The position numbers were made by a program, and so were the translations under genes. DNA of 48,460 bases from assembly GCA_035945995.1 (NCBI GenBank), contig DASYZR010000061.1, positions 1 to 48,460 on the forward strand. The letters are read 5' to 3'. The notes under the pieces are model-generated. The model searched no databases, was not told where the DNA came from, and was given only the letters and a program-made list of their open reading frames with translations. Of the stretch, positions 1-2,742 are shown in pieces. The DNA is from a bacterium. GTDB taxonomy: Bacteria; Sysuimicrobiota; Sysuimicrobiia; Sysuimicrobiales; Segetimicrobiaceae. Numbering within the stretch: the first letter of the stretch is position 1; each line of letters opens with the position of its first letter.

Positions 1-536
1 ACAACCTCTCGAGGTAAATTGGCGCGAGCCAATTGCTGCTCGACTGTGTGATGATAAACTTGGTTATAGTAGTCTGACACATCTGCAACCAGCACGTGTC
101 GGACTTTGGATTCATTGGCCAGAGCTAGCAATCTTTGCCAAAAGGCCGCCCAGTTGAAGGCCGGATCGTAAAGTTGTCCGCCCACGAGAGGCCTTAGTCT
201 GTAGCTAAAGACAATGTTCTCAGTCGTCTTGACTCTGGTGCGCTCGATCTGCCGGCCATACTGGTAGATGAGTGCCGTCAATACCAGGGAATCTATCGGA
301 TCGAGCTGCATTCCAACTCGATATCCGAGGCGATCCTTAGGGATAATTGCGCGCCGACTACTGGCGCTCCATTGATGAGCGCCAAGATCCGTTGCCTCAA
401 TGAATTTCCCTGCCATAGGCCAAGTCGAATACAGAGCTTCAATCTCGAAGGGTCGCGGAAATAGATCGGTGTCGCTCCACTTGCGGAGGTGGGCGATCGC
501 CGAATTCAGAGCTCGTGTCTTGAGCCGCTCCGCCAT
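1..536 (-). CDS. Reverse transcriptase, N-terminal part (defence-associated type), truncated by window edge
   Basis: An open frame of 178 codons runs from an ATG at 536 to the window edge, so only the N-terminal part is visible. The peptide begins MAERLKTRALNSAI. It has the block YRVGMQLDPIDSLVLTAL (about residues 72-89), then VFSYRL (about 110), and then HVLVADVSDYYNQVYHHTV (about 150-168). The last block matches reverse-transcriptase motif A, with the first catalytic Asp followed by an aromatic pair. The YxDD box should lie beyond the edge. The layout of basic helix, IDS/VLTAL and FSYR before motif A is that of the Abi / unknown-group reverse transcriptases linked to phage defence, not of group II intron proteins. 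No strong ribosome site precedes the ATG. The gene lies 34 bases downstream of another minus-strand gene and may be co-transcribed with it. Family assignment is from motif reading, and the exact class cannot be given. Confidence 0.75.
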   Translation of the reverse strand, partial: MAERLKTRALNSAIAHLRKWSDTDLFPRPFEIEALYSTWPMAGKFIEATDLGAHQWSASSRRAIIPKDRLGYRVGMQLDPIDSLVLTALIYQYGRQIERTRVKTTENIVFSYRLRPLVGGQLYDPAFNWAAFWQRLLALANESKVRHVLVADVSDYYNQVYHHTVEQQLARANLPREV

Positions 537-559: not shown

Positions 560-583
560 GCGAAATCCTGTTAGGGATTTCGC
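560..583. repeat. Perfect 9-bp inverted repeat between the two island genes
   Basis: GCGAAATCC at 560-568 and GGATTTCGC at 575-583 form a perfect 9-bp stem with a 6-base loop. The upstream gene's TAA (573-571) sits in the loop. No T-run follows on the minus strand, so a classic intrinsic terminator is unlikely. It could be an attenuator, an RNA processing site, or part of a structured RNA in front of the reverse transcriptase. Confidence 0.5.
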
Positions 584-1070
584 AACCACGAAATTAGGTC
601 CTCGAACTCATCGCGCGCGGGAGCAGTACCCATCGCCGTAGCGGCGATGGCACGCGTGACCAAGTCTGCTACCCGTTCAGAGTCTGCCAATAGAAAGGGC
701 TCTTCCAATCCCGTCTCATTGATTACTGATTCAACAGCACGCCCGAAGGGCGCAACCACCCACCGGGGAGAGCGACAACCTCTTTCCATGGCTGAAATCG
801 CCCAGCTGGTGTCAACTCCATTCTCCAACTGCAAGGCAACGTCCAGCCAATCGATGCCCCCGTTGGGGAGTAGTTCGTGTGGGGCTAATCTCGCGACCGC
901 TCTTACAATCCATGCGAGATAATTGTGGATCCCGATTGACAAGAAGTCCAAGAAGTTCTCGTAAACGTCATCCCAGCTTACTGGCTGTGGCAAACCTCTG
1001 AGCCACTGTTCCAATGGTGGCTGACGCGTAGATCTCCTCGTATACGGCAGGCTCGTGAAGATGTCTTCCG
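571..1070 (-). pseudogene. Unrecognised protein, C-terminal fragment (start lost)
   Basis: A minus-strand frame ends at TAA 573-571 and codes for a soluble, Trp-rich, acidic C-terminal region (for example PVSWDDVYENFLDFLS and IDWLDVALQLENGVD). The frame stays open to 1329, but from about 1070 upward it is only the antisense of the serine recombinase. The conserved-looking part holds no ATG before the AMERG segment, so the natural start appears to be missing. I do not recognise the family. The mix of helices and W/D-rich turns is reminiscent of C-terminal regions of large SF2 helicases, but no helicase motif is present to prove that. It lies upstream of and close to the reverse transcriptase, so it is its likely operon partner. 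Codon use matches the island rather than the chromosome. Confidence 0.4.
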
Positions 1071-1071
1071 G

Positions 1072-2678
1072 CCGTACGCTCGCTACAGTTCGGACAGACA
1101 GCGGGCAACCTCGATCGAGGATCAAGTGAGCCTCTGTCGGCAGGCAGCTCTCCGTCTCGACTATGCCCTCGCCGAAGATCACCTGTACACGGACCAAGAG
1201 ATCTCTGGGGCCGTGGAACAGCGCCCGGGCTATATGCGGCTCATTGAGGCCGCCAAGAGCCGCCGGTTCGGGGCAATCCTCGTGGAGTCCCAGGACCGTC
1301 TGTGGCGCGATCAAGGCGAGATGCATCACGCTCTGAACCGCCTGCGGTTCTGGGGTATCCGGGTAATCGCGGTCAGCACGGGTGCAGACCTCACTGACCG
1401 CACTGGACGTCTCTGGCGTCCGTCATGGGCTGGAAGGACGAAGCGTTCCTTGAAGACCTGCGCGACAAGACGCGGCGCGGAATGGCAGGCCAGGTACGCC
1501 GCGGGCTCAGCGCCGGCGGACGCGCATACGGCTACCGTAGCGAGCCGATGTACAGCGACCAGCACCAGATCGTCGGATACAAACGTGTCGTAGACTCTCA
1601 GGAAGCCGCGGTCGTGAGGCGGATCTTCGAACTGTACGACTCGGGCTACTCACCGAAGACGATTGTCCACATGCTTAACGAGGAACGCGTTGCACCACCC
1701 CGCCCTTCTCGAGGCCGCCGGCTGATGGGATGGACTTGGACGACTATCAACGGATCGCCCAGGAAAGCTATCGGCATCCTCAACAATCCGCTCTACGTTG
1801 GCAAACTGGCGTGGAACCGAAGTCAGAAAGTACGTGACCCTGATACGGGCAAACGGATGATGCGCCTACGCCCTGAGGGCGAATGGCAGTGGACCTCGGT
1901 GCCGGAGCTTCGGATCATCCCGCAGGACCTGTGGGATCGGGTGCAGGCTCGTCGCCAAGGGCGGCGCCAAGCGGCCGGCCTCACGCCAGGCGCAAAGCCA
2001 AAGTACCTGTTCAGTGGCCTTCTGGTGTGCGGCGAGTGCGGCAGCCACTACACGATCAAGGATCGCGGTTACTATGCGTGCAGCGCCAACGTGAACCGCG
2101 GTTCGGCTGTGTGCCGGAATACGAAGCTGGCCCGGCGCGATCGGGTCGAGGAGATCCTGATTGACTGCATCTACAAAGAACTGTTCTCTCCAGAGACAGT
2201 AGCCTATCTCACTCGCCAGGTCGATGAGGCCTTGGCCCGTCTATCCATCAACCCGGATGAGCAGCGCCGCCGGATCGAGGCGGACCTTCGGCAGGCAAGG
2301 ACAGAGCTGGAGAACGTCCTGACGGCCATCCGCCAGGGACTGACGACTCCAGCGACACGGGGGCTGCTGTTCGAATGCGAGGAGCGCGTTGCCGGCCTTG
2401 AAGCAAGCCTCAGGGACCTGCCCACAAAGCCGCCGCGGCTGGTTTCTCCGCCGTCAGCAGTCGAGAGCTACCTGCGTCAGCTCCGGGAGACGATGGGCAC
2501 GGACGCGGAACGCGCGCGGAGACTCCTGGCAAAGCTGATCGGACCGGTCACGCTTCGGCGCGACGGAACGCATCTCGTGGCAGAGGTTCAAGGGAATCTG
2601 GAAGCGCTGTTGGGATTGGATGACCCTGCTACGGCGAGTCTCTATGGGGGTAATCATGGTGCCGGGAGGGGGATTTGA
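1072..2678 (+). pseudogene. Large serine recombinase, frameshifted
   Basis: Resolvase/invertase-type recombinase that would excise or integrate the element. The N-terminal catalytic block YARYSSDRQ lies at 1075-1101, with the nucleophilic Ser in SSD, followed by SIEDQ and ILVESQDRLWRD. After GADLTDRTGR the frame changes near 1410-1415. The downstream frame reads LASVMGWKDEAFLEDLRDKT, which is the expected continuation, so a single base appears to be missing (ctctgg where ctcctgg would restore the frame). The recombinase domain follows, then a zinc ribbon (CGECGSHY at about 2029-2052, later CSANVNRGSAVC) and a coiled-coil tail. No start codon is in frame before YARYSS. An ATG at 1061 is one base out of frame, so a second deletion or a truncation is possible. 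The stop lies inside the tRNA-Leu gene. A sequencing error cannot be excluded. Confidence 0.8.
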
Positions 2679-2742
2679 ACCCCCACGGGTTGCCCCACAC
2701 GCCCCTCAAACGTGCGCGTCTGCCAGATTCCGCCATCCCGGC
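2657..2742 (-). tRNA. tRNA-Leu (anticodon GAG)
   Basis: The reverse strand folds as a class II tRNA. The acceptor arms are GCCGGGA and TCCCGGC, followed by A and an encoded CCA. The anticodon stem is CACGT/GCGTG with loop TTGAGGG, giving anticodon GAG. A long variable arm (TGGGGCAACCCG) and a T-arm with GGTTCAAAT are present. Length is 86 bases with CCA. The 3' end faces the island, and the recombinase frame reads about 22 bases into it, so this is the probable integration target. Identity as leucine rests on the anticodon and the long variable arm. Confidence 0.95.

Follow-up and report, generated by a model that had tools for sequence, protein, structure and literature searches.

A DRT8-family reverse transcriptase gene, cut by a contig end, on a serine-recombinase island at a tRNA-Leu(GAG) gene

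DRT8 has been described as a reverse transcriptase (RT) system with a PD-(D/E)XK domain (PMC12596737), and its mechanism is listed as unresolved (PMC13213688, PMC13314766). RTs of the Class 1 UG/Abi type possess an alpha-helical repeat domain, and in the members studied so far DNA synthesis requires no nucleic-acid template (PMC13174585). AbiK and AbiP2 are known to synthesize DNA in a protein-primed, template-free manner, with Tyr44 of AbiK itself serving as its primer (PMC9508834). Here we describe a further DRT8 RT, encoded at the very edge of a bacterial contig of which we analyzed a stretch of 48,460 nucleotides (referred to in its entirety as the window). The system itself is already known, and since the gene is incomplete, the finding is a modest one. 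It adds a host group to those of DRT8, in which none of the 42 other genomes of the host phylum that were searched carries this RT, and it adds a tRNA-Leu gene that is re-used as an island site. In our main reading, to which we assign a probability of roughly 70%, a serine-recombinase island inserted at tRNA-Leu(GAG) carries, as its cargo, a Drt8-family RT with a Class 1-type mechanism. The features of the locus are as follows.

3..536, minus strand: 5' third of a Drt8-family RT gene, covering the fingers and motif A (PADLOC Drt8, 1.3e-53; alignment A1; tree)
571..1020, minus strand: gene A, about 149 amino acids, a possible partner or an unrelated island gene (codon-position GC)
1075..2678, plus strand: large serine recombinase, broken (Pfam Recombinase and Zn_ribbon_recom, the C-terminal domains; tblastn)
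2657..2742, minus strand: tRNA-Leu (GAG), putative attachment site of the island (ARAGORN; same layout in genomes G025, G026, G027, and G032)

On the minus strand (positions 3-539), the RT is encoded by a frame of 179 codons without a stop, which extends past the left edge of the window (contig C61). Base 1 of the window is the true start of the contig (G000:C61:1); hence, the gene is cut by the end of the assembly, and no stop codon is present there. As a start, the ATG at position 536 is preferable to the GTG at 539, since the related proteins begin at about that point, and the portion encoded from this ATG comprises the first approximately 178 residues. Motif A (HVLVADVSDYYNQVYHHTV) is intact, and so are E31, R73, E98, R101, S111, R113, D152, Y157, and H163 (numbered from M536), the residues that 21 or more of the 22 family members share over the stretch covered by the fragment. 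In this copy, the YxDD box (motif C), the end of the palm, and the helical domain at the C-terminus lie off the contig. A profile search of the whole G000 assembly with Drt8 yielded a single match (E=1.5e-52; profile positions 2-166 of 493), and neither a second match to this profile nor the YxDD part was found on any other of its contigs.

To assign the RT to a family, we compared it with the PADLOC, NCBIfam, and Pfam profiles. PADLOC returned Drt8 as the best model (181 bits; profile positions 2-166 of 493), a similarity that, judged from the profile score, lies far beyond chance; RT_UG21 (44 bits; 3.2e-12) and Drt5 (36 bits) followed, leaving Drt8 with a lead of 137 bits. The only NCBIfam match was a weak one to Drt5, far under its cut-off, and Pfam RVT_1 gave almost nothing (E=0.14) since the fragment possesses just the fingers and motif A. 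Group II intron, retron, and DGR RTs were not the best match in these searches, in which PADLOC returned DRT/UG models only and NCBIfam only the weak Drt5 hit. All eight full-length relatives had Drt8 as their best PADLOC model, and it was the sole model to reach its cut-off for the 10 relatives scanned from viral or prophage contigs; across both sets, the Drt8 scores ranged from 333 to 587 bits. RT_UG21, the second-best profile, shares the same general architecture but differs clearly in score, both for the fragment (44 versus 181 bits) and for the full-length relatives (at most 193 versus 407-587 bits).

In a maximum-likelihood tree, the window RT fell into a six-member clade with L043, L044, L047, L003, and L005 (support 100/99). 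This tree was computed from 176 shared columns of 22 Drt8 RTs and holds no non-Drt8 RTs; it is the HMM scores that set the window RT apart from other UG groups. All five nearest relatives have RYVDD or RYADD as motif C, and the four among them with uninterrupted genes possess a long C-terminal region. With the best profile, the tree placement, and motif A with its flanking conserved residues in agreement, we regard membership of the window RT in the known DRT8 family as settled at the level of sequence, on what appears to be a fairly unusual branch: it shares only 24-46% identity with relatives in several phyla, its subclade relatives are found without the described PD-(D/E)XK partner (PADLOC Drt8, PDLC03783, for the RT), and the copy itself is cut by the contig end. 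The first-pass annotation had proposed a minus-strand RT with motif A, of the UG/Abi type and a defence class; the open frame, the motif, a best profile that is itself an RT family, the DRT/UG models, and the position inside the Drt8 RTs all agree with this. Its further suggestion of a new defence system is not upheld, since the RT belongs to a family that has already been described.

Relatives of the window RT occur in distant hosts. The full-length relative L003 (41-42% identity) stems from Eisenbergiella, in whose phylum six of 398 genomes, that of L003 included, hold relatives of the RT; others are found on plasmids of Rhizobium, Aminobacter, and Caballeronia. Phage records held no relative. 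On viral and prophage-type contigs a scan with the single sequence recovered none, but a profile scan did. This profile scan, like the profile search of solved structures reported below, was fed by alignment A2, in which the row for L044 has shifted coordinates and is without its C-terminus; alignments A1 and A3 and the tree are independent of that row.

The RT is foreign to this genome and was brought in on a mobile island at a tRNA gene. The GC content is 53% at the RT, compared with about 66-75% in the neighboring core and about 70% where this core adjoins the island, and the recombinase gene ends within the tRNA-Leu(GAG) gene; the tRNA-linked island in a core region, as it had been noted in the first pass, thus stands. 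Intact homologues of the recombinase (538-548 amino acids) end in the same tRNA-Leu(GAG) in G026, G025, and G032; G027 contains a further homologue at this tRNA, G033 a possible C-terminal remnant, and G028 and G029 possess the tRNA without a recombinase. No duplicate of the 3' end of the tRNA was found within the window. Several assemblies break at this tRNA, which is expected if the island located there differs or repeats. Since same-genus genomes remained unmatched at the tRNA region, misbinning of the contig was considered; it was rejected because GAPDH is single-copy in G000 and finds its nearest counterparts in the same genus (84-86%). Large serine recombinases related to one another have repeatedly integrated at tRNA-Leu(GAG) in several genera of the bacterial family (window 2657-2742; L107, L108, L109, and L112). 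The cargo at this site varies, and in L108 one of its proteins weakly matches PADLOC RTasPolA (a DNA polymerase).

The recombinase of the window is broken. A tblastn search with the intact 548-amino-acid homologue of G026 splits at a frameshift at about position 1413, and near position 1075, where the N-terminal homology lies, no in-frame start codon is present. Since the recombinase of the island is defective, its RT cargo may be decaying as well. One might therefore view the RT gene as truncated or dead, a remnant left behind on a decaying island, and the frameshifted RT gene of the plasmid relative L005 would be in keeping with such a fate. However, the 178 visible codons contain no stop, the conserved residues are retained, the gene is ended by an assembly gap and not by a stop codon, and the frameshifts could be assembly errors. 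We consider such a remnant unlikely, and the RT may well be an active enzyme in this genome.

With regard to the PD-(D/E)XK protein, RTasPDDEXK was located directly 3' of the RT in one branch only of the loci that we gathered (L058/L059/L060, L061, and L062/L067). It is missing from the whole genomes G310, G428, G257, and G043 and from plasmid CP090202, which represent the nearest relatives, and from G000 as assembled, in which the downstream side of the RT is off the contig. The neighbors of the RTs of the window subclade vary by locus; the upstream genes differ in every relative, and no conserved gene was found downstream of the RT in the nearest relatives. Since RTasPDDEXK is missing from the genomes of these relatives and the other neighbors vary, the RTs of the window subclade probably act without this partner, the window's own downstream side being off the contig. 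A canonical two-gene DRT8, with a PD-(D/E)XK effector positioned past the contig edge, would conform to the published description (PMC12596737) and to the three prophage lineages in which RTasPDDEXK directly follows the RT. Yet the partner is confined to the separate L058/L061/L062 branch and is missing from the relatives' genomes and the rest of G000, and the nearest relatives possess no conserved downstream gene in its place; this arrangement is hence distinctly unlikely. Tentatively, the six-member clade of the window RT could represent a partner-less DRT8 branch. In contrast to the two-gene DRT8 described to date, it would provide defence through a single gene whose product makes DNA without a template, and in this host it may have recruited an unrelated helical protein, A. 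With such a subclade, one could examine whether DRT8 can do without the PD-(D/E)XK protein.

Gene A lies on the same strand as the RT gene and ends 34 bases ahead of its start; given this short gap, the two genes may be co-transcribed. The minus-strand frame is open from 571 to 1329, but its codon-position GC is coding-like only to about 1020, with the recombinase antisense beyond. The values for gene A (0.60/0.46/0.59) resemble those of the RT (0.60/0.42/0.57). Homologues of gene A were found neither in Pfam, PADLOC, NCBIfam, PHROGs, and the PDB nor in plasmids, viral contigs, and 11 genomes of the family, and its modelled structure is all-helical and of low confidence (pLDDT 49). Apparent homologues beside tRNA-Leu were rejected as the antisense of recombinase genes, and gene A was likewise rejected as RTasPDDEXK, for it has no PADLOC match. 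A new two-gene variant, with the helical 149-amino-acid product of gene A as the dedicated partner of the window RT, would fit the shared strand, the distance of 34 bases, and the coding-like codon-position GC that matches that of the RT. We regard it as improbable, because no relative of gene A was present near any Drt8 RT or elsewhere in the data searched, and the upstream gene is a different one in each relative of the subclade.

For a view of the complete fold, the Eisenbergiella relative L003 was modelled with AlphaFold2 from an alignment with the window fragment and 13 RTs of viral contigs. The model (mean pLDDT 90.4) comprises fingers and palm, followed by approximately 230 residues of helices. 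Foldseek placed it closest, among solved structures, to DRT6 (TM 0.62/0.64), DRT4, AbiK, UG15, AbiA, and AbiP2, with DRT9 and group II intron RTs ranking below these. A profile search of solved structures by sequence, using A2, gave DRT4/UG15 first, with DRT6 and the 541-residue RT 7r08 (AbiP2) in the top group. Since the fold of the relative is nearest to DRT6, DRT4, and AbiK, and the Class 1 RTs studied synthesize DNA without a template, template-independent synthesis of the Class 1 type appears to be the likeliest mechanism for DRT8, for which it offers a clear prediction; at TM values of 0.5-0.6 and 13-15% identity, the likeness does not prove the same chemistry. DRT6 and DRT4 (UG12/UG15), the nearest solved folds, share with the modelled relative an RT domain and a C-terminal helical domain but are separate families by HMM, with 13-15% identity. 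AbiK and AbiP2 resemble it in that palm and fingers lack a thumb and are accompanied by a helical domain; the priming tyrosine of AbiK, however, was not recognized in the DRT8 relatives, whose alignment shows no conserved Tyr at any obvious equivalent position in the N-terminal part.

In the Class 1-type mechanism that we favor, the RT would form an oligomer in which a C-terminal helical-repeat domain, in place of a thumb, closes the palm and fingers. Upon phage infection it would make single-stranded DNA without a nucleic-acid template, with a protein hydroxyl as the probable starting point, and the DNA product would block growth of the phage or stop the infected cell. An RNA-templated (Class 2-like) RT is very improbable: DRT2 and DRT9 use a nearby non-coding RNA, some DRT families depend on a neighboring RNA, and the region downstream of the window RT is off the contig, but the spacers are short (34 bases between gene A and the RT, and 7 bases between the RT of the Eisenbergiella relative and the gene before it), no Rfam match was obtained, and the modelled fold is closer to Class 1 than to DRT9.

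Relatives are found beside SIR2-HerA or on prophage-type contigs. In L043 (1804-8339), a SIR2-HerA defence pair and an unassigned gene of 255 amino acids precede a Drt8 RT of the window subclade. On the Rhizobium plasmid (L005:8971-10514), the Drt8 RT is divided between two frames, one annotated as an RT and the other as a hypothetical protein, owing to a frameshift or a sequencing error. Two loci distant from each other (L003:393-2925 and L045:5506-7846) have a Fic-domain gene next to the Drt8 RT; that of L003, separated from the RT by a gap of 7 bp, was called by eye from its HPFADGNGR motif, and that of L045 by Pfam. On the viral-type contigs L058 (4776-8318) and L061 (311-3871), a tyrosine-integrase-like gene (by eye), the Drt8 RT, and RTasPDDEXK stand in a tight row, the ends of the genes overlapping; together they form a compact, mobile cassette of DRT8. 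On an Aminobacter plasmid (L006:6672-12680), a HerA-like ATPase, the Drt8 RT, and a retron type VII-A1 RT-DUF3800 protein adjoin each other, placing two defence RTs in a row.
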